DNA from: Paenibacillus aceti
Lineage (GTDB): Bacteria; Bacillota; Bacilli; Paenibacillales; Paenibacillaceae
DNA length: 64,000 nt
Assembly: GCF_003614185.1 (NCBI RefSeq)
Contig: NZ_KZ987724.1
Coordinates: 4,415,743-4,479,742, forward strand
Direction of reading: 5' to 3'
The translations under genes were made by a program, and so were the position numbers. Shown piece by piece: positions 21,195-33,671 of the stretch; the first letter of the stretch is position 1; each line of letters opens with the position of its first letter. Under the pieces are notes generated by a model. That model ran no database searches. It saw only the letters and a list, made by a program, of their open reading frames with translations, and had not been told where the DNA came from.

Positions 21195-21797
21195 CTATAT
21201 CCAGCCTTTCTCCTCGGCAATGCGGACAGCCTCGATCCGGTTCCTGGCTTCAAGCTTATTAATGATCTCTGAAATGTAATTGCGCACCGTTCCATAGGAT
21301 AGATGCAGAGCCTTCGCAATCTCAGCGGCACTCTGTCCTTGAGCGGCCAGCTTGAGGATGTCCACCTCCCTTGCGGTTAAGGGATTCTCGTCGCGTATGC
21401 TGCCGAAGATCAGCTCAGGTGAAATCTCCCGATGTCCAGCCATGACGCGGCGGATGGCTTCAGCCAGTCTATCGCTAGGCTCATCCTTGAGCAAATATCC
21501 ATGAACATCCGCCTTGATAGCCCGCTCGAAATAACCAGGCCGGGCGAAGGTGGTCAGGATAATAACGCGGCAGGGCAGAGCCCTGGCCTGTATCTCCTCC
21601 GCTACATCCAGGCCGCTAAGCTGGGGCATTTCAATGTCTACGAGACAGACATTCGGCTGCAGCTTACAGATCAGCTCCAGCGCTTCCGCTCCATCTGAGG
21701 CTTGACCGACGACTTGAATGTCTTCTTCCAGATCGAGCAGGGATGCTAGAGCACCGCGCAGCAGACGCTGGTCTTCAGCAATTATGATCTTGATCAT
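21195..21797 (-). CDS. NarL/LuxR-family response regulator (DesR/YvfU-like)
   Basis: A 200-residue two-component regulator. The receiver domain (1-120) has the acidic pair ED at 8-9, phospho-acceptor Asp54 in CLVDIEMP, Thr/Lys switch residues (ILTTF, LLKDEPS). The C-terminal LuxR-type HTH (about 135-200) reads NPLTAREVDILKLAAQGQSAAEIAKALHLSYGTVRNYIS. It overlaps the kinase gene by four bases, so the two are co-translated. With the ABC exporter genes upstream in the same operon this matches the B. subtilis yvfRSTU or lnrJK-LMN arrangement, where the regulator controls the exporter. Target promoter not identified. Confidence 0.92.
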   Translation of the reverse strand: MIKIIIAEDQRLLRGALASLLDLEEDIQVVGQASDGAEALELICKLQPNVCLVDIEMPQLSGLDVAEEIQARALPCRVIILTTFARPGYFERAIKADVHGYLLKDEPSDRLAEAIRRVMAGHREISPELIFGSIRDENPLTAREVDILKLAAQGQSAAEIAKALHLSYGTVRNYISEIINKLEARNRIEAVRIAEEKGWI

Positions 21798-22915
21798 GCA
21801 GATTCACCGTCTTCTCTGTCTTTGATGATTAGGGGTACTGTAATTAGCATGTTCGTCCCTTGCTTATTGCCAGGGGAGACTGTCAGGGTGCCCTCGATTA
21901 GTGATAGCCGTTCCTTCATGCCGTTCAGTCCGTTACCGTACTGGATGGAGCCCTCCTGTAGTCCAGAGCCCACTCCATTATCTTCGATTCTGATAGTGAT
22001 CATTCGCTCTGATTTCGCTACGAGGATCTTGCAGTGTGTAGCCTCGCTATGCTTGACGATATTCGTGATTCCTTCCTTAATGCAGAGGCTGAGAATATTC
22101 TGCGTTAAGGGGGGGACATCCTCCAGTCTGGCATCTCCTTCAATCTCCAGCTTGATATTCGCCACCTTTAATATCTCGGCCGTCTCTGCCAGCTCTTCGA
22201 CGACTGTGATGGCTCTCATATCGGAGACAAGCTCTCTCACTTGCCGTAATGCCGCTCGCGAAGTCTGATAGATCTCCCTCGCTTCATTCTGAGCCCGCTG
22301 GGGGTCGATCATCGTTAATTTCTCGACCAGTTGGCTCTTCAGAGTAATCAGCGATAAGGTATGTCCGAGTGTATCATGCAGATCACGGGCGATACGGATG
22401 CGTTCCTCTCGCTTGACCAGTTCTTTAATCTGCTCATTTGCCTGATCGAGCTCCTTCTCAAGCTGCTGCTTCCGATTCAGAGAGCGAATCCCGAAGGGGG
22501 ACACCATCATAATCAGGAAGAAGGGAATGATGAACAGAATCTGTTGGATTTGAGTGTCTTTGATCGCGAATAACAGAGGAATTAACTCCACGGCGGCGAA
22601 TACCGCCATGGAGATGTTGAATCTGCGCTTTTCAGCGTACCATCCGATGAAGTTGGCGGTGTAGAAGCCCATATATAGGTTATAGGGGCCATAGAACAGA
22701 CTCATCAGGAGGATAATAAGTAATTGCAGACCAAGCCAACAATCGAAGCGTCGACCTGTAGCAAAATATAATTGACGATAGGTAAGGACGAATAAGCCGA
22801 TCATCAGGTAGCCAAGCCAGAGCTTGACTCCAGATGCACTCTGAATGTTGACGATAGGCAGAATGATGTAGATAAGCCATACATAGGGGAAGAATCCGTA
22901 TTTTTTAGGGAACAT
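21794..22915 (-). CDS. DesK-type sensor histidine kinase
   Basis: A 373-residue membrane kinase. Four to five hydrophobic helices (residues 8-142) are followed by a coiled-coil-like linker (QLEKELDQANEQIKEL), the HisKA_3 dimerisation motif ERIRIARDLHDTLGHTLSLI with phospho-acceptor His180, and a HATPase domain with N-box KEGITNIVKHS, G1 IRIEDNGVG and G2 GNGLNGMKERL. No large extracellular sensor is present, so the signal is probably perceived in or at the membrane, as in DesK and in kinases that guard against membrane-active drugs. RBS AAGGAG lies about 11 bases before ATG. Confidence 0.92.
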   Translation of the reverse strand: MFPKKYGFFPYVWLIYIILPIVNIQSASGVKLWLGYLMIGLFVLTYRQLYFATGRRFDCWLGLQLLIILLMSLFYGPYNLYMGFYTANFIGWYAEKRRFNISMAVFAAVELIPLLFAIKDTQIQQILFIIPFFLIMMVSPFGIRSLNRKQQLEKELDQANEQIKELVKREERIRIARDLHDTLGHTLSLITLKSQLVEKLTMIDPQRAQNEAREIYQTSRAALRQVRELVSDMRAITVVEELAETAEILKVANIKLEIEGDARLEDVPPLTQNILSLCIKEGITNIVKHSEATHCKILVAKSERMITIRIEDNGVGSGLQEGSIQYGNGLNGMKERLSLIEGTLTVSPGNKQGTNMLITVPLIIKDREDGESA

Positions 22916-22955
22916 TCAGAGAGAGCTCCTTTCTTTATTAAGCACTGTTAGACCA

Positions 22956-23693
22956 TTATATCGCTTCTTGTCTTCTTCTAGTATATAAGGATATTAGCAT
23001 AAAAACGATAAAGTAGCCTGCGAGTACAAGGATATCCTCCCATTTCGGCGGGTTGCCCTGGACGAGCTCCCAGGCGCCATTGCCGAAGCGGTAAGACGGC
23101 AGCCATTTGCCGATGGCTTGCATCAGCTTGGGAAGTATATCTATCGGCATCCACATGCCGCCCAGTATCGCCATGACAAGATAAAGGGCGTTGCTTACTC
23201 CAGAGGCCGTATCTACCCGTTTCATACAGCCGACAAGTGTACCGACGGCCAAGAAGGGCAGGGAGGCGATGAGAATCCATAGTCCGCAATATATCCAGAG
23301 GTGAACGGGCATCGTAACGCCGCTAATCAGATATCCGGCTAGGAAGATGCAAATAATGGAGGAGAGATGCATGATCATCTGACCGAACATTTTGCCTAGA
23401 AAGAATATCGCTCCGGGCAAGGGGGTTATGCGCATGAAGGTGCTCCAGCCTTGGCTGCGCTCTTGTACAAGCCGTATCCCCAGTGTCATGATTGCCGAGC
23501 CCATCACACTAAATGAAGTCATCGACATCAGGTAATGCTTGTTCCAGGCCACCGCATCTGTAGCTCCGGTACTGATGACACGGGTGAAGATGAAGTAGAA
23601 TACGATCGGCATGGCAAGCGACCAGAAGACATAATACGGATTGCGGAAAATCCGCAGCAGCTCTATTTTGAATTGGGTAAGTACGAGTTTCAT
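22956..23693 (-). CDS. ABC-2 type exporter permease (YvfS-like)
   Basis: A 245-residue permease with six predicted membrane helices, starting MKLVLTQFKIELLRIFRNPYYVFWSLAMPIVFYFIF and containing the family motif LGGMWMPIDILP near 175. It belongs to the ABC-2/DrrB group of drug and lipid exporters. Its start overlaps the end of the ATPase gene by four bases. With that ATPase it likely forms a homodimeric-permease exporter controlled by the adjacent two-component system. The substrate is unknown; cyclic or linear antimicrobial compounds are the usual case for this arrangement. Confidence 0.87.
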   Translation of the reverse strand: MKLVLTQFKIELLRIFRNPYYVFWSLAMPIVFYFIFTRVISTGATDAVAWNKHYLMSMTSFSVMGSAIMTLGIRLVQERSQGWSTFMRITPLPGAIFFLGKMFGQMIMHLSSIICIFLAGYLISGVTMPVHLWIYCGLWILIASLPFLAVGTLVGCMKRVDTASGVSNALYLVMAILGGMWMPIDILPKLMQAIGKWLPSYRFGNGAWELVQGNPPKWEDILVLAGYFIVFMLISLYTRRRQEAI

Positions 23694-24601
23694 TGGGCGA
23701 TCTCCTCCTGATTTATCGTTAGTTGTTCGAATACTTCATCCAGGCTTCCTGAATGAATCCTTATATCATGGACCGGCAATCCGGCACCGAAGATCGCAGC
23801 GAGCGCCAAATCGGTGTCATCGGTCGCGACATAAATTCTCCCATCCTTATCGTAGCAATTGGTGATCGGAGACAGGGAAGCAAGCTTGCGCCGCAGCTCA
23901 GGTCCATCTTGATCGGAGAGGAAGGACAGAGAGCTGTGCAGAATTCGGGATTTAATATCTGCTGGCGTCCCGTCAGCGACGATGGAGCCTTGGTTGAATA
24001 GGATTATCCGATCGGCGATATCATCAGCCTCCTGCAGATAGTGAGTGGTGAACAGGATGGTCTTGCCTTGGCTCGCCAGCTTATGCACCGTCTCCCAGAA
24101 ACGGCGTCTTGCCATCGTGTCGAGCCCCACCGTAGGCTCATCGAAGAACAATACATCTGGGTCGCCCGCCAGAGCCATAGCGAAGCCGAGGCTGCGCTTC
24201 TGCCCGCCGGACAGCTTCTCCGTATAACGGTTCAAATCTTTAGGAGTCAGTCCGGTCAGATAGATCAGAAACTCCATATCCATCGGGTGCGGATAATAAT
24301 TGCGGGTTAGCTCGAGGATCTCCTTGACCTTCAGACGATCCATAATGCTAACGTGCTGGAGCATCACACCGATTCGCTCTCGAACATATCGCTCTTTCGG
24401 CGAGCGTCCGAACAGCTTAACACTTCCTTGGTTCGGCTCAAGAAGCCCGAGCATCATCGATAAGGTTGTCGTCTTGCCGGCTCCGTTCGGGCCCAGAATG
24501 GCGGTAACTGATCCAGATTCGATTTGAAATGAAACGTCATTTACAGCTATTCTATTCTTGAAGGATTTCTTAACATGGTTTAATTCAATGACAGTACTCA
24601 A
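23690..24601 (-). CDS. ABC exporter ATP-binding protein (YvfR-like)
   Basis: A 303-residue DrrA/CcmA-type ATPase. Walker A GPNGAGKT is at residues 37-44, signature KLSGGQKRSLGFAMAL near 131, Walker B VLFFDEPTVGLD near 154, and H-loop TTHYLQEAD near 188. A DUF4162-like C-terminal region follows. The TTG at 24601 is preferred: GGAGG ends 8 bases upstream, whereas the in-frame ATG at 24616 overlaps that site and has no RBS of its own. First gene of a four-gene minus-strand operon (ATPase, permease, kinase, regulator). Confidence 0.9.
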   Translation of the reverse strand: MSTVIELNHVKKSFKNRIAVNDVSFQIESGSVTAILGPNGAGKTTTLSMMLGLLEPNQGSVKLFGRSPKERYVRERIGVMLQHVSIMDRLKVKEILELTRNYYPHPMDMEFLIYLTGLTPKDLNRYTEKLSGGQKRSLGFAMALAGDPDVLFFDEPTVGLDTMARRRFWETVHKLASQGKTILFTTHYLQEADDIADRIILFNQGSIVADGTPADIKSRILHSSLSFLSDQDGPELRRKLASLSPITNCYDKDGRIYVATDDTDLALAAIFGAGLPVHDIRIHSGSLDEVFEQLTINQEEIAQ

Positions 24602-24657
24602 GACATTCGCCTCCATTAACTTAGAGATGTTGAACTAAATGAAAGAACAAGAACTAG

Positions 24658-24895: not shown

Positions 24896-24941
24896 GGATC
24901 GATACTTGTATCCCTGACTAGATCCCGAGGAGGAACCCAGA

Positions 24942-27479
24942 ATGAAGATGAGGAAATCGATATACGAACTGGTGGAGACGACCGATGCTCTGCCCTTTGA
25001 TGTCTCTCTCCATAGCGTGAATTATGTACCGAGCCATTGGCATAACAGTGTGGAGATCATCTTCGTTCTCCGGGGCAGCCTGGAGGTGACAGTTGGCCAT
25101 AGGCAGCAGACCTTGTCAGAGGGCGATGTCAAGCTGATTAATTCCGGGCATGTGCATGAGGTGATCGGCTTCCATAACAACATCATCGCGACTTTTCTAA
25201 TCCCCGATACCTTCATTAAAGGGAATATTAGAGGTGTGGAGCAGGCTTATTTTGAGTGTGATTCCAGTACGGCAGGCAAGGAGCTTCGCCCGGCTTTGGA
25301 TCGGATTCGTCAGCTGCTAGCGGAGATGGTGCAGATGACTTATAAGCGGGGAGAGGTGTACGAGCTTGAGATGCGGATTCGTATGCTGAGCGTATTCTCG
25401 ATTCTGATGCAGCGATTCCGGACAGAGGAGCCGGAGGGCGAAGGGGCGATCAAGGAGAAATACATGGATCGCATGCTGCGCATCATTAATTATATCGAAG
25501 AGCATTATCAAGAGCCGATTATGCTGCAGGAGATCGCGGAGCAGGAATTTTTGTCGGTGCCCTATTTATCGAAATTCTTCAGTGAGCAGATCGGCCTGAA
25601 TTTCCAGTCCTTCGTCAGTGGGGTCCGGCTGAAAAATGCGGTAGATGACATGCTTAATCACATCGAGATGCCAATTAGCGAAATTGCTCTGAGGCACGGC
25701 TTCCCCAATTCAAAATCATTCTATACCGCGTTCAAAAACCTCTATCATATAACGCCGAACGAGTATCGCAGACAGTACAATCCGGTCATGGACAAGGCTA
25801 GTGAGAGAATATCGCAGGGCTATTTTGCCTTCAATAGAGCCAGTGCTTTGGGAATCATCAATCAGTATCTGCAGCGGAGTCAATCGGGTCAGGAGCTTCA
25901 GGTTGCGGGAACCAAGGTGATGACCCAGGCTATTGACTTGTCTAAAAAGGGGCGTCAGCTCCGCCATACCTGGAAGAACCTGATTACGATCGGTAAGGCG
26001 AAGGAAGGGCTGCATGAGGATGTGCAGAATCAGCTGAGCTATCTGCAGCAGCATTGTCCGTTTCGGGAGGTTCGCTTCCACGGCATATTTGATGACAGCA
26101 TGATGGTCTACCGCGAGGAGGAGGGGCGTCCCTATTATAATTTTCGCTTTATAGACCAGCTCTTCGACTTCCTGCTATCGATCGGCCTGAAGCCGTTCAT
26201 CGAGCTAGGGTTCATGCCTTCGGAGCTTGCGGCCGAGCAGGGTAAATCGGTATTCTATATTCCCAGCTATGTGAGCGGGCCGAGCTCTATGGAGCGTTGG
26301 TGTGAGCTGTTGGATCGCTTTCTGCGCCACTGCATGAATCGGTATGGTCGTGAAGAAGTGGAGGGCTGGAAGCTTGAATTCTGGAACGAGCCGGAGCTAG
26401 CGGTATTCTGGCCGGGCACGGTCGATGAATATAATGAGTTCTATCTCCAGTCCTATCGGGCGGTGAAGCGAGTCTCTGACAGATTGAAGATCGGCGCGCC
26501 AGGCCGGATTATTTCGACGGAGACCGCTGCGTATTTTCACAATTTCATAACCTTTTGCCGGGAGCATGGTTGCTTGCCTGATTTTCTACCGATTCATTTC
26601 TACCCGCATGAGGATTTGCTCGAGAATGATCATCGGAAGCTAGAGCATCTCTATAAGCTGAGTGACACGTCCTTCCGCGTGGTCATGGAGCAGTTCGTAT
26701 CCATATCCCCGAATCCGGATATACTTAGGGACATGCTGGCTCAGGAGAAAAGAATGCTGAGGGAGCTGGGCGTCTCCCATCTCGGGCTATATTTGACAGA
26801 GTGGAATTCAACGGCATATCATCGTGAACTGACGAATGATACGCTCTATAAAGCGGCTTATATTACGAAGAATATAGCGGAGAATCTGGACAGCATTGAA
26901 GGATTCGGATACTGGGTGCTTAGTGACAATATCGAGGAGACGCCGGCGTCGGAGCAATTGTTCCACGGGGGACTTGGCTTGATGGCCCAGCATGGCATTC
27001 CCAAAGCGGCGATGACGGCGTATGAGCTTCTGGCAAAGCTCGGGGATCGGCTGCTCGCTCAAGGCGATAGTTATATCGTTACTACTGGTCGGGGCAGCTA
27101 TCAGGTGCTGAGTTATAATTACTGCCACTTCGATGATTTGTATGCGCTCGGGGACAACTCCTTCATCAATGCGACGAATCGGTATAATGGATTTAAGGGG
27201 GAGAAGGTCGTTAAGCTGGAGCTGGATCTTCAAGGCATTCCTCCAGGAAAATATCGGATGGTGACCTATACAGTATCGCGTGAGCAGGGCAGCAGTTATG
27301 ATGCATGGGTCAGGATGGGGGCGCCGGATGATGTAACAGAAGAGGATGTAGTCTATTTGACCGCTGCTTCACATCCTCGGAAGCATATCCGCGAGGTGGA
27401 AATCGAGAGCGGGCTGAGCTATATATCGCAGCTTGAGCCGCATACGGTGGAGTTGATGGTGTTAACAGCGCTGCTGTAA
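24942..27479 (+). CDS. AraC-family regulator fused to a GH39-type glycoside hydrolase
   Basis: An 845-residue cytoplasmic two-part protein. Residues 1-110 form a cupin-like AraC sensor domain (HSVNYVPSHWHNSVEIIFVLRG). Residues 175-285 hold the AraC double helix-turn-helix (MLQEIAEQEFLSVPYLSKFF; ISEIALRHGFPNSKSFYTAFKNLYHITPNEYR). From about 320 to the end is a GH39 beta-xylosidase-like module with acid/base Glu483 in FWNEPE and candidate nucleophile Glu620 in LTEWNS. Both catalytic acids are present, so the hydrolase part may be active or may act as the sugar sensor. No signal peptide is seen. RBS GAGGAGG precedes ATG 24942. It is followed by a sugar transporter and two GH3 genes, the probable targets. 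Confidence 0.88.
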   Translation: MKMRKSIYELVETTDALPFDVSLHSVNYVPSHWHNSVEIIFVLRGSLEVTVGHRQQTLSEGDVKLINSGHVHEVIGFHNNIIATFLIPDTFIKGNIRGVEQAYFECDSSTAGKELRPALDRIRQLLAEMVQMTYKRGEVYELEMRIRMLSVFSILMQRFRTEEPEGEGAIKEKYMDRMLRIINYIEEHYQEPIMLQEIAEQEFLSVPYLSKFFSEQIGLNFQSFVSGVRLKNAVDDMLNHIEMPISEIALRHGFPNSKSFYTAFKNLYHITPNEYRRQYNPVMDKASERISQGYFAFNRASALGIINQYLQRSQSGQELQVAGTKVMTQAIDLSKKGRQLRHTWKNLITIGKAKEGLHEDVQNQLSYLQQHCPFREVRFHGIFDDSMMVYREEEGRPYYNFRFIDQLFDFLLSIGLKPFIELGFMPSELAAEQGKSVFYIPSYVSGPSSMERWCELLDRFLRHCMNRYGREEVEGWKLEFWNEPELAVFWPGTVDEYNEFYLQSYRAVKRVSDRLKIGAPGRIISTETAAYFHNFITFCREHGCLPDFLPIHFYPHEDLLENDHRKLEHLYKLSDTSFRVVMEQFVSISPNPDILRDMLAQEKRMLRELGVSHLGLYLTEWNSTAYHRELTNDTLYKAAYITKNIAENLDSIEGFGYWVLSDNIEETPASEQLFHGGLGLMAQHGIPKAAMTAYELLAKLGDRLLAQGDSYIVTTGRGSYQVLSYNYCHFDDLYALGDNSFINATNRYNGFKGEKVVKLELDLQGIPPGKYRMVTYTVSREQGSSYDAWVRMGAPDDVTEEDVVYLTAASHPRKHIREVEIESGLSYISQLEPHTVELMVLTALL

Positions 27480-27601
27480 TAGATAGAAGGACTTTAATGC
27501 CGAGTATCGAGTGCTGTGTCATTATTTAATGTCATTTCCGGTCTGGGATGAAGCGCTTGCATAAAAATCATTAAATAAGGCTATACAAGAGGCTAATATA
27601 G

Positions 27602-27621
27602 CGCCTGTCGCAGGACAGGCG
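27602..27621 (+). terminator. Hairpin after AraC-GH39, possible terminator
   Basis: CGCCTGTC pairs perfectly with GACAGGCG around a GCAG loop, followed by TAATTTTATATT, a weak T-tract. It lies between AraC-GH39 and the MFS gene. Confidence 0.5.
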
Positions 27622-27642
27622 TAATTTTATATTATTATATTA

Positions 27643-27656
27643 TGAAAACGCTAACA
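27643..27656 (+). promoter_or_regulatory. cre site (CcpA binding) upstream of the MFS/GH3 genes
   Basis: TGAAAACGCTAACA matches the Gram-positive cre consensus TGWNANCGNTNWCA at every defined position. It ends 31 bases before the MFS start codon, close to where transcription should begin, the position typical for repression. This predicts shut-down on glucose via HPr-Ser-P/Crh-Ser-P and CcpA. Confidence 0.75.
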
Positions 27657-27687: not shown

Positions 27688-28950
27688 ATGACTGAGTCCA
27701 GAATAAAAGGGCAGGTCGTAACACCGTTAGGAAGATTAACATCCGGCATTATGCTCGGTTACGGATTAATGATGTTAGCTCTAATGACTCCGGCAGTGCT
27801 GCTGCTGACTTTTAAAATGATAGAGATTGATCCGCAAGGATACACTTCCTCTTACGGTCTTGTCGCGGGCGTCGGGGCTTTCTTCGCCTTGATCGGTAAT
27901 CCGCTGGGTGGGGCGATTAGTGACCGGACGAATATCGCGTTTGGACGTCGGCGCACCTGGATTTTCATCGGGGCTGTGATCGGAAGTCTGGCCTTGCTAT
28001 GGGTAGGTATGGCTACTCAGGTATGGCAGGTTGTTATCGGATGGTCGATTGCGCAGCTGTTCTTCAATTTTGCGATGGCGGCCTATACCGCGCTTATTCC
28101 TGACCAGGTTAAGCAGGAGAGACAGGGGACGATATCCGGCTTGGTCGGTCTGATCCTGCCGATTGCGATGGCCGTGGGGATGGTACTCATGATGCTCATG
28201 CCTAATGCATCCTCGATTACGAAGTGGACGATGTTAAGTATATTGGGAATCATAGGCCCGGTGCTAAGCTGCTTCTTGATCCGGGATGGAAAAGTCGAGA
28301 TTGAGCGAGTTGCCAAAGAGAAAGTTCCGTTCGGTGAGAAGCTGAGTAGAATTTATCCGAGCCCGCGGAAATTTCCGCATTTCACTTGGGCGCTGATCTC
28401 GAAATTCCTGCTGATGATGGGCTATTGCAGTACCTTGTATTTGACGGTGATGCTCGTGAACCGTATGGGCTTTACAGAGACGCAAGCTACGAACAGCGTG
28501 GGCACCATTAATATTATTTCAATGCTGGCTATGGCGCTGACAAGCATCTTCGGCGGTGCCCTCTCCGATAAATACCGGAAGCAAAAGCCGTTCCTGTATG
28601 GCTCCGCTTTTATTATGATCATCGGGATTGTAATGTTCGCATTTATTCCGAATTACATCGCATTCGTGATCGCTGCGGCGATTATCGGCTTGGGTGCAGG
28701 CTGCTTCACGGCGGTGGATATGGCGCTTGTAGCTCGTATTCTGCCTCGCAAGGAGGATTCGGCCAAGGACTTCGGTTTGATGAACGTAGCCAATGCTCTG
28801 CCGCAATCGATCGTGCCGGCGATCGCTCCCGTCCTGCTGGCCATCGGCGGTTGGTCCTTCTTCTATATTGCGCTTGCTGTCTGCGTTGTGCTGAGTATGC
28901 TAGCAGTGAAGCCGTTGCCGGAGGTTGGACAGAAGGTTGAACAGAGGTAA
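27688..28950 (+). CDS. MFS transporter, probable glycoside/oligosaccharide importer
   Basis: A 420-residue major facilitator with about 12 membrane helices. The motif NPLGGAISDRTNIAFGRRRTW (residues 71-91) is the motif-A loop seen in the sucrose/maltose transporter-like and GPH-like branches, and a second copy GGALSDKYRKQKP lies near 290. The two-halves symmetry is clear. RBS AAGGGGGCC precedes ATG 27688. It sits between the AraC-GH39 gene and two GH3 hydrolase genes and behind a cre site. Uptake of a beta-linked xylo- or gluco-oligosaccharide that the cytoplasmic hydrolases then cleave is therefore a reasonable inference. Exact substrate not determinable. Confidence 0.85.
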   Translation: MTESRIKGQVVTPLGRLTSGIMLGYGLMMLALMTPAVLLLTFKMIEIDPQGYTSSYGLVAGVGAFFALIGNPLGGAISDRTNIAFGRRRTWIFIGAVIGSLALLWVGMATQVWQVVIGWSIAQLFFNFAMAAYTALIPDQVKQERQGTISGLVGLILPIAMAVGMVLMMLMPNASSITKWTMLSILGIIGPVLSCFLIRDGKVEIERVAKEKVPFGEKLSRIYPSPRKFPHFTWALISKFLLMMGYCSTLYLTVMLVNRMGFTETQATNSVGTINIISMLAMALTSIFGGALSDKYRKQKPFLYGSAFIMIIGIVMFAFIPNYIAFVIAAAIIGLGAGCFTAVDMALVARILPRKEDSAKDFGLMNVANALPQSIVPAIAPVLLAIGGWSFFYIALAVCVVLSMLAVKPLPEVGQKVEQR

Positions 28951-29040
28951 TCAGAAGTAATTCAGAACGTAATCAGGTAAATATACAGCCATGATTGGGT
29001 TCAAGAGTTCAAGATGAATACTGAAGGAGGCATGGTAATT

Positions 29041-31350
29041 ATGACACAAACCTTGGACAGAAATATTAAAGCAATCATTTCACAGATGACGACTGAAGAG
29101 AAAGCAAGCCTATGCTCTGGATTAAATATGTGGCAGACCAAAGCGGTGGAGAGGGTCGGTATTCCTTCCATCGTGATGACAGATGGTCCGCATGGTCTTC
29201 GCAAGCAGGCAAATCCGGGCGATATGTCGAGCAAAAGTGTTCCGGCCACCTGCTTCCCTAGCGGCGCGGCTCTGGCCTCGTCCTGGGATCGTGATCTAAT
29301 TCAAGAGGTCGGGCGTGCGCTCGGTGAGGAATGCCAGACGGAGGATGTTCAGATTATTCTCGGCCCGGCCGTCAATATTAAGCGTTCACCGCTATGCGGC
29401 CGCAGCTTCGAATATTTCTCGGAGGACCCGTTCCTCGCTTCGGAGATGGGAGCCCATCATGTAATGGGGGTGCAGGAGCAGGGCGTCGGCACTTCGGTGA
29501 AGCATTTTGCAGCGAATAATCAGGAGACGCTGCGCAATTCGATCAATACGATGGTGGATGAGCGCACACTGCATGAAATCTATCTGCGGGCCTTCGAGGG
29601 TCCGATTACCAAGGGTGATGCCTGGACCGTCATGTGCGCCTATAACCTCGTGAATGGAGAGTTCTGCTCCGAGAATGAATATCTGCTCACAGAGGTACTG
29701 AAGGAGAGATGGGGGCACAGCGGATTCGTCATGACCGATTGGGGCGCTATCAATGAGCGTGTCAAAGGTCTGCAAGCAGGGCTTGAACTGGAGATGCCCT
29801 ATAGCGGGCCGGATCGCGATCAGATGATCGTTGACGCTGTGAAGTCGGGCGAGCTGGATGAGACTGTGCTCGATCAAGCGGTCGAACGGCTGCTGAACGT
29901 CATCTTCAGAACTTATGATGCGCGGAAGGAAGGCTTCACTTATGACAGACAGGAGCATCATGCTCTGGCCAGACGAACGGCCGCTGAATGCATGGTTCTG
30001 CTTAAGAACGCAGACCGCTTGCTGCCGCTTGATCCGAAGCAATCTGTGGCCGTGATCGGAGCCTTCGCTACGAACCCGCGTTATCAAGGCGGGGGTAGCT
30101 CGCATATCTCTCCGACCCAGATGGACGTGGCTCTGGATGCGATCCGTGAGGCGGCGCAAGGGGAGGTTGGCTATGCCCAGGGCTATCAGATGAAGGAAGA
30201 CGTGGTGGACGAAGCTCTGATCGCTGAGGCGGTTCAACTCGCAGCTGGCAAAGATGCCGCGATTATATTCGCAGGGCTGCCGGACAGCTTCGAATCAGAG
30301 GGCTTCGACCGTACGCATCTCGATATGCCGAATTCCCATGGCGAATTGATTCGCAGGGTCGCCGAGGTTCAGCCGAATACAATCATTGTACTGTCGAATG
30401 GCGCGCCAGTAGTTATGCCTTGGCTGGGCTCCGTCAAAGCCGTCCTGGAAGGCTATTTGGCCGGGCAAGCCGGCGGGGGTGCGGTGGCAGACATTCTATT
30501 CGGCAAGGTGAATCCGAGCGGTAAGCTGGCGGAGACCTTCCCGGCTAGTCTGAAGCAGACTCCGGCCTACTTGAACTTCCCTGGTGGGATGAGTGAGGTG
30601 AACTACGCTGAGGGCCTATTCGTAGGGTATCGCTATTATGAGGCGAAGGAGGAACAGCCACTGTTCCCGTTCGGATATGGTCTTAGCTATACGAGCTTTG
30701 CTTATGAAAATATTAGCTTGAGTAAAGAAGTTATGAAGGACAGCGATATCATCGAGGTTCTCGTTACCGTGCGCAATACTGGAGATCGTGCAGGGAAGGA
30801 AATTGTACAGCTCTACGTACAGTCACTGGACAGCTCTGTCATAAGACCTGTGAAGGAGCTTAAGGGCTTCGAGAAGGTGGAATTGCAGGCGGGAGAATCT
30901 AAGGAGATTCGCTTTACGCTCGATAAACGCTCCTTCGCCTATTTTAATACGGATATCCATGACTGGTTCGCGGAGACAGGCTCGTATGATATCGTAGTAG
31001 GTTCTTCTTCGGCGGATACGCCGCTAAGAGCGACGATAAAAGTGATTTCAACGGCGATTCCGTTCCGGCAAGTGACTCGGAACACGAAATTCTATGAACT
31101 GCTGGCCATTCCTGAAACGGCTGAATTTGCAGCGAAGGCGATTGAGGACAGCGCTGAGAGTATTAAGCGTATGGGGGCGCTCTTCGCCGAGAGTATGGAT
31201 GACGACGGCCTGCTCATGTTATTTGAAGAGGTATACAAATGGAAGAAGTATGATGGATTGCGCTCTCTGATCGGTTTCATGGGTAAAGGCATGACAGAGG
31301 CTGAATTCGCGGAGCTGCTCGATGATTTGAATCAGAAGCTGGGATTATAG
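29041..31350 (+). CDS. GH3 family beta-glycosidase, cytoplasmic
   Basis: A 769-residue family 3 glycoside hydrolase without signal peptide. It begins with the barrel domain (GIPSIVMTDGPHGLRKQ near 40, NIKRSPLCGRSFEYFSEDPFLASEMG near 110, KHFAANNQET near 155) and catalytic nucleophile Asp233 in GFVMTDWGA. The alpha/beta sandwich domain (about 310-550) includes GLPDSFESEGFDRTHLDMP, where the acid/base Glu is likely. A fibronectin-like domain (about 590-680) and a short helical C-terminal extension follow. ATG 29041 is preferred over 29014 and 29032 because AGGAGG lies about 9 bases upstream. Beta-glucosidase or beta-xylosidase activity on imported oligosaccharides is the likely role. Confidence 0.9.
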   Translation: MTQTLDRNIKAIISQMTTEEKASLCSGLNMWQTKAVERVGIPSIVMTDGPHGLRKQANPGDMSSKSVPATCFPSGAALASSWDRDLIQEVGRALGEECQTEDVQIILGPAVNIKRSPLCGRSFEYFSEDPFLASEMGAHHVMGVQEQGVGTSVKHFAANNQETLRNSINTMVDERTLHEIYLRAFEGPITKGDAWTVMCAYNLVNGEFCSENEYLLTEVLKERWGHSGFVMTDWGAINERVKGLQAGLELEMPYSGPDRDQMIVDAVKSGELDETVLDQAVERLLNVIFRTYDARKEGFTYDRQEHHALARRTAAECMVLLKNADRLLPLDPKQSVAVIGAFATNPRYQGGGSSHISPTQMDVALDAIREAAQGEVGYAQGYQMKEDVVDEALIAEAVQLAAGKDAAIIFAGLPDSFESEGFDRTHLDMPNSHGELIRRVAEVQPNTIIVLSNGAPVVMPWLGSVKAVLEGYLAGQAGGGAVADILFGKVNPSGKLAETFPASLKQTPAYLNFPGGMSEVNYAEGLFVGYRYYEAKEEQPLFPFGYGLSYTSFAYENISLSKEVMKDSDIIEVLVTVRNTGDRAGKEIVQLYVQSLDSSVIRPVKELKGFEKVELQAGESKEIRFTLDKRSFAYFNTDIHDWFAETGSYDIVVGSSSADTPLRATIKVISTAIPFRQVTRNTKFYELLAIPETAEFAAKAIEDSAESIKRMGALFAESMDDDGLLMLFEEVYKWKKYDGLRSLIGFMGKGMTEAEFAELLDDLNQKLGL

Positions 31351-31406: not shown

Positions 31407-33671
31407 ATGGGAGAATACAAAGAGAATATAGATCATATCAAGTATGTACAGAATCCGGGGGGACCAACGCTAGGCTATTCCGCCTCGTCAGGTGTACAGA
31501 TACTGGAGCAGGATGGCCTGTTCTTCAAGGATCTGAGCAAGGATGGCAAGCTGGATAAATATGAGGATTGGAGATTGCCTGCGGAGGTGCGGGCTAAGGA
31601 TCTGGCCTCAAAAATGGCCGTGGAGCAAATCGCTGGCTTGATGCTGTACAGCAGCCATCAGAATGTTCCTGCCGCGAGCGGCGGCTGGTTCGCAGGCACT
31701 TACCGGGGAAAGACCTATGAGGAGAGCGGAGCCAAGCCATGGGAAATGACCGATGAGCAGATGGCCTTCCTGGCCAAGGATCATCTGCGCCATATCCTCG
31801 TCGCTGCGGTAGAGAGTCCAGAGGTGGCGGCCCGTTGGAACAACGAGGTTCAGGCCTTTGTCGAGGGAGTCGGCCTGGGTATCCCGGCCAACAACAGCTC
31901 TGATCCGCGGCATGGCAGCGAGACGAGCTCCGAATTCAACGCTGGTTCCGGCGGCACCATCTCCATGTGGCCGGAGACGCTGGGGCTTGCGGCCACCTTC
32001 AATCCGGAGGTGGTGAAGCGGTTCGGTGAGGTGGCGTCCAAGGAGTACCGGGCGCTGGGCCTGACCACAGCCCTGTCACCGCAGATCGATATTGCGACAG
32101 ATCCACGCTGGTTCCGCTTCAACGGTACATTTGGTGAAGATTCCAAGCTGGCGACGGACATGGCTCGCGCTTATGTAGATGGCTTCCAGAGCTCCGAGGG
32201 CGAGAGCGAGCTGGCTGACGGCTGGGGCTATGATAGCGTGAATGCGATGGTGAAGCATTGGCCTGGCGGCGGCTCCGGCGAGGCTGGCCGGGATGCGCAT
32301 TTTGGCAGCGGCAAATATGCCGTTTATCCAGGTAATAATTTTGCTGAGCATTTACTGCCTTTCGTAGACGGAGCATTCAAGCTGGATGGCAAGACAGGGA
32401 TGGCCTCGGCCGTGATGCCGTATTATACGATTTCAACGGATCAGGACCCCGTCTATCATGAGAATGTCGGCAATTCGTTCAGCCGTTATCTAGTTAAGGA
32501 TCTGCTGCGCGATCAGTATGGATATGATGGCGTGGTGTGCACGGACTGGATGATTACCGCCGATGAGACGAGCCGGGATGAGTTCCTGAGTGGCAAGTCC
32601 TGGGGCGTTGAAGGTCTCACAGTGGCTGAACGTCATTATAAAGCGTTAATGGCCGGAGTGGATCAATTCGGCGGGAACAATGATAAAGAGCCGGTGCTGG
32701 AGGCTTATCGGATGGGAGTGGCCGAGCACGGCGAGGCTTATATGCGGGAGCGGTTCGAGCAATCGGCGGTGCGGTTATTGCTTAATATTTTTCGGCTCGG
32801 TCTATTCGAGAATCCGTATCTTGAACCGGCGCAGAGCTCGGCAACGGTCGGTCGACCGGAATTTATGCTGGCGGGCTATGATGCACAGCTGAAATCCGTC
32901 GTTATGCTCAAGAACAAGGACCAGGTGCTTCCGTTGCCTACCAAGAGCAAGGTGTATATTCCAAAGCGCTATATTCCAGCCAGCTTCGATTGGTTCGGTA
33001 ATCCTGTAGCAGAGAAGCTGGAGGACCCGGTTAATCTCGATATTGTAAGTCGCTACTTTACGGTAACAGAGAATCCGGAGGAAGCGGACTTCGGGCTAGT
33101 ATTTATCGAGGGCCCAACCTCTGGGATGAGCGGATATAGCCGTGAGGATGTGGAGCAAGGGGGGAACGGATATGTTCCGTTGAGTCTGCAATATCGCCCG
33201 TATACGGCGGAGTACGCCCGTGACACGAGTCTGGCAGGCGATGCGCGGGAGAGCGATGTATTGAACCGCTCCTATAAAGGCAAGACCGTAACCGCCAAGA
33301 TTGAGGTGGATCTGGACCTGGTTCTGGAGACGAGGGAACGGATGAAAGGCAAGCCTGTCATCGTATCCATGCGTCTCTCTAACCCGGCCGTCGTTGCAGA
33401 ATTCGAGCGTGAAGTCGATGCGATTCTCGTTAATTTCGGCCTGCTGGATCAAGCGATTATGGATATCTTGAGCGGGGCGGTCGAGCCTTCAGGCTTGCTG
33501 CCAATGCAGATGCCGGCCCATATGAAGACGGTGGAGGAGCAGCTTGAGGACGTGGCGCATGATATGGAATGTCATATAGACTCAGAGCAGCATACCTATG
33601 ATTTCGCCTATGGCTTGAACTGGAGCGGTGTGATCCAGGATGAGCGGACGGAGAAATACGGTAAGCGGTAA
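31407..33671 (+). CDS. Second GH3 family hydrolase with EF-hand-like loop
   Basis: A 754-residue GH3 protein of a different branch from its neighbour. Near the N-terminus residues 42-53 (DLSKDGKLDKYE) form a perfect EF-hand/dockerin-style calcium loop, followed by EDWRLP. The barrel carries NSSDPRHGSE near 163, LSPQIDIATDPRWFRFNGTFGED near 222, KHWPGGGSGEAGRDAH near 285, and the nucleophile Asp380 in VVCTDWMI. The C-terminal sandwich domain (about 500-735) lacks an obvious Fn3 domain. There is no signal peptide, so a cytoplasmic location is inferred. RBS AGAAGGAGAG. 56 bases after the first GH3 gene, probably one transcript with it and the MFS gene. Confidence 0.88.
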   Translation: MGEYKENIDHIKYVQNPGGPTLGYSASSGVQILEQDGLFFKDLSKDGKLDKYEDWRLPAEVRAKDLASKMAVEQIAGLMLYSSHQNVPAASGGWFAGTYRGKTYEESGAKPWEMTDEQMAFLAKDHLRHILVAAVESPEVAARWNNEVQAFVEGVGLGIPANNSSDPRHGSETSSEFNAGSGGTISMWPETLGLAATFNPEVVKRFGEVASKEYRALGLTTALSPQIDIATDPRWFRFNGTFGEDSKLATDMARAYVDGFQSSEGESELADGWGYDSVNAMVKHWPGGGSGEAGRDAHFGSGKYAVYPGNNFAEHLLPFVDGAFKLDGKTGMASAVMPYYTISTDQDPVYHENVGNSFSRYLVKDLLRDQYGYDGVVCTDWMITADETSRDEFLSGKSWGVEGLTVAERHYKALMAGVDQFGGNNDKEPVLEAYRMGVAEHGEAYMRERFEQSAVRLLLNIFRLGLFENPYLEPAQSSATVGRPEFMLAGYDAQLKSVVMLKNKDQVLPLPTKSKVYIPKRYIPASFDWFGNPVAEKLEDPVNLDIVSRYFTVTENPEEADFGLVFIEGPTSGMSGYSREDVEQGGNGYVPLSLQYRPYTAEYARDTSLAGDARESDVLNRSYKGKTVTAKIEVDLDLVLETRERMKGKPVIVSMRLSNPAVVAEFEREVDAILVNFGLLDQAIMDILSGAVEPSGLLPMQMPAHMKTVEEQLEDVAHDMECHIDSEQHTYDFAYGLNWSGVIQDERTEKYGKR

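Follow-up and report, generated by a model that had tools for sequence, protein, structure and literature searches.

The window, i.e. the whole stretch of 64,000 nt of Paenibacillus aceti DNA analysed here, contains on its forward strand a gene for an 845-aa protein in which an AraC-type cupin and double helix-turn-helix (HTH) are followed by a GH39 domain. Its reading frame is unbroken and the sequence AGGAGG is located at 24928-24933, ahead of the ATG start codon at 24942. Downstream and on the same strand lie genes for an MFS transporter and two GH3 enzymes, and the intergenic stretch between the regulator and the transporter gene carries a predicted operator and promoter (Table 1). A DesK/DesR-like two-component system and an ABC transporter are encoded at 21195-24616 on the strand opposite to the fusion.

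Table 1. Location of the fusion gene, its domains and predicted active-site residues, the likely target genes and control elements, and the paralogue in the same genome
Feature	Position	Strand	Basis or remark
AraC-GH39 fusion regulator, 845 aa	24942..27479	+	ORF call, Pfam and structure model
Cupin, aa 29-75, H32-x-H34-x3-E38 and H72	25026..25166	+	Pfam Cupin_2
AraC-type double HTH, aa 199-278	25536..25775	+	Pfam HTH_18; model helices at 172-279
GH39 domain, aa 331-817	25932..27392	+	PF01229; best Foldseek match 2bs9
Glu483, predicted acid/base	26388..26390	+	aligns with E160 of GsXynB1
Glu620, predicted nucleophile	26799..26801	+	aligns with E278 of GsXynB1
Predicted operator half-site 1, TATTTAATGTC	27523..27533	+	conserved in clade A
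Predicted operator half-site 2, inverted, ATCATTAAATA	27567..27577	+	conserved in clade A
GC-rich hairpin, then T-rich run; probable terminator of the regulator transcript	27602..27621	+	sequence
Predicted -10, TATATT	27628..27633	+	TATAAT in most relatives
cre-like box, CcpA-type, TGAAAACGCTAACA	27643..27656	+	sequence match
MFS transporter, likely target gene 1	27688..28950	+	Pfam; synteny
GH3 (a), likely target gene 2	29014..31350	+	Pfam; synteny
GH3 (b), likely target gene 3	31407..33671	+	Pfam; synteny
Degenerate AraC-GH39 paralogue L002 (= L266)	G000:C1:13168-15573		WTEF / TRWN

Domain architecture and active-site pocket

The first-pass annotation had proposed a regulator and a GH39 hydrolase in one chain, and the cupin, the double HTH and the GH39 domain were all recovered above their Pfam cut-offs. 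In the N-terminal part, Cupin_2 (37.6 bits against a cut-off of 27.2) and AraC_binding (aa 29-74) point by profile to a cupin of the sugar type. Together with the double HTH (HTH_18, 60.7 bits against 33.6), this is the arrangement of the AraC/XylS family. The Glyco_hydro_39 match covers profile positions 5-463 of 472 (E = 4e-78, 263.8 bits against 26), and this near full-length match, the acid/base and nucleophile glutamates and a predicted barrel with accessory domain are those of GH39. A chance fusion or an assembly error was ruled out, since the gene has no frame break and its join was found again in other genomes, at 55-88% identity and beyond. The closest named record, from Paenibacillus sp. 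D2_2, is 86% identical in the fusion.

A structure model of the full protein was built on an alignment of 17 fusions (the one in the window plus 16 homologues) and reached a mean pLDDT of 83.6 and a pTM of 0.74; its confidence is low at 283-297 and 313-321, where the HTH part is joined to the GH39 part. The top Foldseek match was 2bs9 (E 1.1e-43, TM by target 0.87). The best solved matches were the GH39 beta-xylosidases 2bs9, 1w91, 6yyh and 2bfg with target-normalised TM values of 0.87-0.88, and the values ranged from 0.86 to 0.92 against the 12 GH39 xylosidase chains heading the Foldseek list. In the predicted structure, the GH39 fold is complete. Among the PDB sequence matches listed, none spans both the HTH and the GH39 parts.

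The catalytic and recognition residues of GH39 xylosidases are given in section 5 of PMC8543862, and this list of 12 positions was transferred to the fusion via 1w91 (GsXynB1). Ten of them are identical to GsXynB1 (H380, F438, N482, E483, F489, H552, Y554, E620, W658 and E666); the two catalytic glutamates lie where the first-pass annotation had put them, within the motifs WNEP and TEWN. The differences are A625 in place of Y283 of GsXynB1, a position that in the same comparison table is variable among free GH39 proteins too, and I664 in place of F322. With 10 of 12 pocket positions kept, a decayed enzyme domain was ruled out for this protein; it was accepted for the paralogue L002.

The cupin and the AraC double HTH are shared with the sugar activators RhaS, RhaR and MelR of the AraC/XylS family, and the NCBIfam matches of the fusion to RhaS, RhaR, MelR and AraC all fall under the cut-offs. 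To our knowledge, RhaS, RhaR and MelR carry no enzymatic domain C-terminal to the HTH. The GH39 beta-xylosidases of the same fold (GsXynB1, 1w91/2bs9/2bfg; TsXynB, 1px8; the Dictyoglomus enzyme, 6yyh) are free enzymes, unlike the fusion. AryK, Rsp and Rbf of Staphylococcus aureus are long AraC proteins as well, and AryK (NF047455) was the best NCBIfam match (aa 23-418), its 223.5 bits against a cut-off of 850 placing the fusion outside the AryK family. In proteins of this type, the HTH is N-terminal and the C-terminal region divergent (PMC7241556), and word searches of PMC3922988 and PMC7241556 gave no mention of a glycosidase domain.

The AraC-GH39 join itself is already in print, PMC8543862 being the one source among those consulted in which it was found. 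According to a methods line in PMC8543862, some GH39 xylosidases carry an N-terminal AraC-like domain, which was removed there before alignment, and the best database match of the active GH39 XylP81 was a protein named AraC family regulator. In the available portion of that source, neither regulation nor an operator nor a family survey was found for this architecture. The view of a family with a kept pocket, a partnership with GH3 and transporter genes, a conserved operator and dead paralogues seems to be new with respect to the literature searched.

Retention and loss of the catalytic glutamates in the fusion family

The AraC-GH39 fusion is a widespread family in Bacillota. At E ≤ 1e-40, a threshold that favours proteins similar to the one in the window, matches to the latter turned up in the genus (25 of 41 genomes), the family (94 of 296) and a phylum sample (30 of 398); these counts include its own genome and take in some GH39-only and HTH-only matches. 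In total, 173 distinct fusion ORFs including the window's own copy were aligned, 107 from homology searches and 66 from a scan of genome contigs. ORFs below 700 aa (broken or partial copies, free GH39) were excluded, and copies identical in the last 700 aa were entered once. Because the contig scan had chosen its candidates by the motifs RFHGIF and WNE[PS], its 66 rows, 65 of them with both glutamates, were kept out of the counts that follow.

According to the first-pass annotation, loss of the catalytic residues in most homologues would argue for a sensor only. This check was run and brought no refutation, as 81 of the 107 fusions not selected by an active-site motif keep both glutamates. Sorted by identity to the window's protein, both are present in 17 of 17 fusions at 55% or above (the window's own copy included), in 16 of 16 at 37-45%, in 48 of 51 at 29-36% and in none of the 23 below 29%. 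The 26 losses take in all of these 23 most divergent fusions, one of which is the paralogue in the own genome. Nine or ten of the ten pocket residues are kept in 77 of the 107; L065, counted as having both glutamates, possesses just five of the ten, and G284, a full-length fusion outside the counts, has both glutamates and nine of the ten. When only fusions with 29% identity or more were taken (n = 84), conservation exceeded 90% in nine of the ten pocket columns (F489: 56%), and the ten as a group surpassed the remainder of the domain (rank test, p = 1e-5); the 23 fusions below 29% showed no such excess (p = 0.40). Since a near-complete pocket of the beta-xylosidase type is kept, and over a large divergence, the GH39 domain most likely binds a glycoside and can probably still hydrolyse it. 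Kept glutamates can serve sugar binding as well.

The last point leads to an alternative that we regard as possible but rather doubtful, in which the GH39 pocket would bind the inducer, turnover would be nil or irrelevant and the glutamates would be kept to hold the sugar. An early loss of the acid/base would then be expected, yet both glutamates persist in the 81 fusions down to about 30% identity. One pocket that looks like binding without cleaving is that of L206 (Clostridium sp. DSM 17811), in which Asn482 and the acid/base are lost (WSAP) and the other eight of ten residues kept, but it is a single case. A parallel exists in RsgI6 of Clostridium thermocellum, where a regulator likewise makes use of a glycosidase domain, a GH10 with very low activity and retained binding; in contrast to the fusion, this domain is extracellular and resides on a membrane anti-sigma factor (PMC4711584). 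The RsgI-type anti-sigma N-terminal domain is absent among the seven Pfam matches of the fusion, which sets it apart from that family.

The paralogue L002 bears on the same alternative. It has WTEF for WNEP and TRWN for TEWN, with Arg at the E620 position, and most of the pocket is gone; a transposase-like ORF was seen by inspection directly upstream of it. In the own genome, L002 has GH3 and an MFS_2-type sugar transporter encoded next to it, and some of its relatives retain GH3 neighbours, which suggests that the regulation of GH3/transporter loci can continue without catalysis. A GH3 gene occurs within 8 kb in seven of 20 degenerate loci (raw count), six of the seven being L002-like. Among the remote degenerate forms, L276 adjoins genes for two M20 peptidases and an MFS transporter, suggesting a shift away from sugar control, and L270 adjoins sugar-isomerase-like genes.

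Both GH39 domains detected in the own genome are parts of AraC fusions, and no free GH39 enzyme was found in it. This and the kept pocket would suit a protein whose GH39 part is simply the cytosolic GH39 of the cell, fused for co-expression and without a role in sensing. We consider this very improbable: the fusion persists without an intact pocket (at least one glutamate is missing in each of the 23 members below 29% identity), the operon already has two GH3 enzymes, and regulators are usually made in low amounts.

The cupin residues H32, H34, E38 and H72 are kept in 81, 83, 84 and 82, respectively, of the 84 fusions at or above 29% identity, compared to just 10-16 of the 23 degenerate ones; the cupin and GH39 pockets thus tend to be kept or lost together. 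Such a pattern would be in line with a protein in which GH39 splits the imported glycoside and the cupin senses the freed monosaccharide, so that cleavage would turn the operon on, and a xylose isomerase gene is present. However, joint retention of the two pockets can stem from shared ancestry, and we judge a signal-making enzyme to be unlikely. In a quick tree of 91 GH39 domains, representatives of 201 with free GH39 from Bacillota and two PDB sequences only, there were five changes between the intact and the lost state. Eight free GH39 rows lie on one side of one starred branch once L060 is set aside, as it is a fusion broken by a stop.

Conserved neighbours and a predicted operator

The proposed position of the regulator ahead of its likely targets found support in conserved synteny and an operator-like dyad. 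In the 17 clade-A loci (close relatives of at least 55% identity, the window not being among them), a homologue of GH3b is encoded downstream of the regulator on the same strand in all 17, and a homologue of the MFS transporter downstream in 16. A GH3a homologue occurs in 11 of the 17 and is upstream of the regulator in one. GH3b, the most conserved partner, is matched by eight NCBIfam models, all far below cut-off (best 120.5 bits against 1330). The DesK/DesR-like system and ABC transporter adjoin the fusion in three of the 17 (L090, L091 and L106). In L106, frame breaks interrupt the regulator gene, the two GH3 genes and the kinase and ABC ATPase genes next to them, a pattern more suggestive of sequencing error than of decay.

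Over a larger set of loci, a raw scan with query proteins instead of profiles recorded GH3 no more than 8 kb away in 94 of 119; the set holds the same species twice and also L206 with one glutamate lost, and L154 was dropped for want of a single long ORF. A search of the own 5.6-Mb genome gave eight GH3 genes. Of the representatives left by clustering at 70% identity, GH3 lies within 8 kb in 40 of the 53 intact ones (13 have none), compared to three of the 13 that have lost glutamates. This contrast is not independent of ancestry: Fisher's test gave p = 0.0008 on these counts taken as they are, and the three ancestry-independent pairs a median p of 1. Transporter neighbours showed no clear difference (32 of 53 intact, six of 13 lost). 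Pfam neighbour scans were made for 30 chosen ORFs from eleven loci. Neighbours encode a PTS EIIC and GH3 in L126, GH3 and an MFS_2 transporter in L107 and L115, GH3 enzymes in L180 and a chemotaxis receptor instead in L121; MFS and GH3 were among the ORFs scanned for L144, and an MFS_2 transporter among those for L164. Downstream of the intact AraC-GH39 fusion of L168 (Peptostreptococcus russellii) lie an ORF of 2176 aa and a sortase gene, and neither GH3 nor a transporter was found within 8 kb.

The two half-sites of the predicted operator start 44 nt apart in the window. The best pair has this start-to-start spacing in 15 of 26 regions and one of 43-45 nt in 20; the 26 are related sequences and not an independent sample, and in 200 rounds of dinucleotide shuffles at most five regions shared any single spacing. 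With up to two mismatches, the spaced dyad has a single match in the genome, ahead of the MFS gene, by which autoregulation via the same dyad was ruled out. At three mismatches the dyad and a reversed control pattern gave three hits each. A different conserved block was seen by eye at the same place in the clade with PTS and GH3 neighbours, for which 13 of 19 loci were aligned.

In 21 of the 26 regions, a -10-like hexamer is located 61-63 nt past the point where half-site 2 starts. The distance between dyad and -10 exceeds that known for most AraC activators, a point that speaks against the activator favoured below. Another candidate -10, situated between half-site 2 and the hairpin, was discarded for its lack of conservation (by eye). 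The hairpin itself stays across loci and its stem letters vary (by eye). A cre-like match 3' of half-site 2 exists in 24 of the 26 regions when a loose pattern is used. The approximately 320 nt that precede the regulator gene gave no cre-like match, either in the window or in 17 relatives. Another cre-like sequence, ATGAAGCGCTTGCA, lies between the half-sites at 27548-27561, and similar ones occur in several relatives.

A predicted regulator with a glycosidase-type ligand module

On balance, and with limited confidence, we favour an AraC-type protein that activates an operon for beta-glycoside uptake and, in its GH39 pocket, would bind and probably still hydrolyse its ligand. The architecture, the pocket, the fold, the synteny and the conserved dyad rest on sequence or prediction. 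A soluble AraC-type regulator would control the MFS-GH3-GH3 operon 3' of its own gene, its HTH pair contacting the predicted dyad approximately 50-107 nt upstream of the predicted -10 of the operon; we infer DNA binding here, and activation rather than repression. Carbon catabolite repression would be added by the cre-like box directly 3' of the -10. As the ligand module, we infer, GH39 would most likely bind the non-reducing-end sugar of the imported beta-glycoside (xyloside-like), and hydrolysis, with any effect it may have on signalling, would follow in the same pocket. Entry of the glycoside into this pocket, and perhaps of a sugar into the cupin, would alter the AraC half, which then would act at the dyad and turn on uptake and the GH3 enzymes. 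Hence, the regulator may be able to cut the very sugar that it senses. With the cupin as a further candidate for sensing sugar, cleavage could equally make the inducer or destroy it, the latter as in the self-terminating signal of the first-pass annotation; it may also leave the signal untouched. A chain that both catalyses and regulates transcription is called a trigger enzyme, and the sequence of the fusion is compatible with these two activities.

For the family, we tentatively suggest, and hold it to be more doubtful than the activator itself, that Bacillota possess one-chain devices in which a working glycosidase acts on the inducer of its operon and thereby ends or creates the signal, and that repeated losses of catalysis gave rise to pure sensors in other regulons. 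Should the domain prove catalytic, one protein would both sense the inducer and remove (or make) it, an unusual feedback device, for the testing of which the active and dead versions would constitute a natural set. The fusion family further points to an origin, open to testing, for those long AraC regulators whose C-terminal halves lack an explanation. Were catalysis absent, a large group of proteins that are labelled both regulator and xylosidase would still gain a function.
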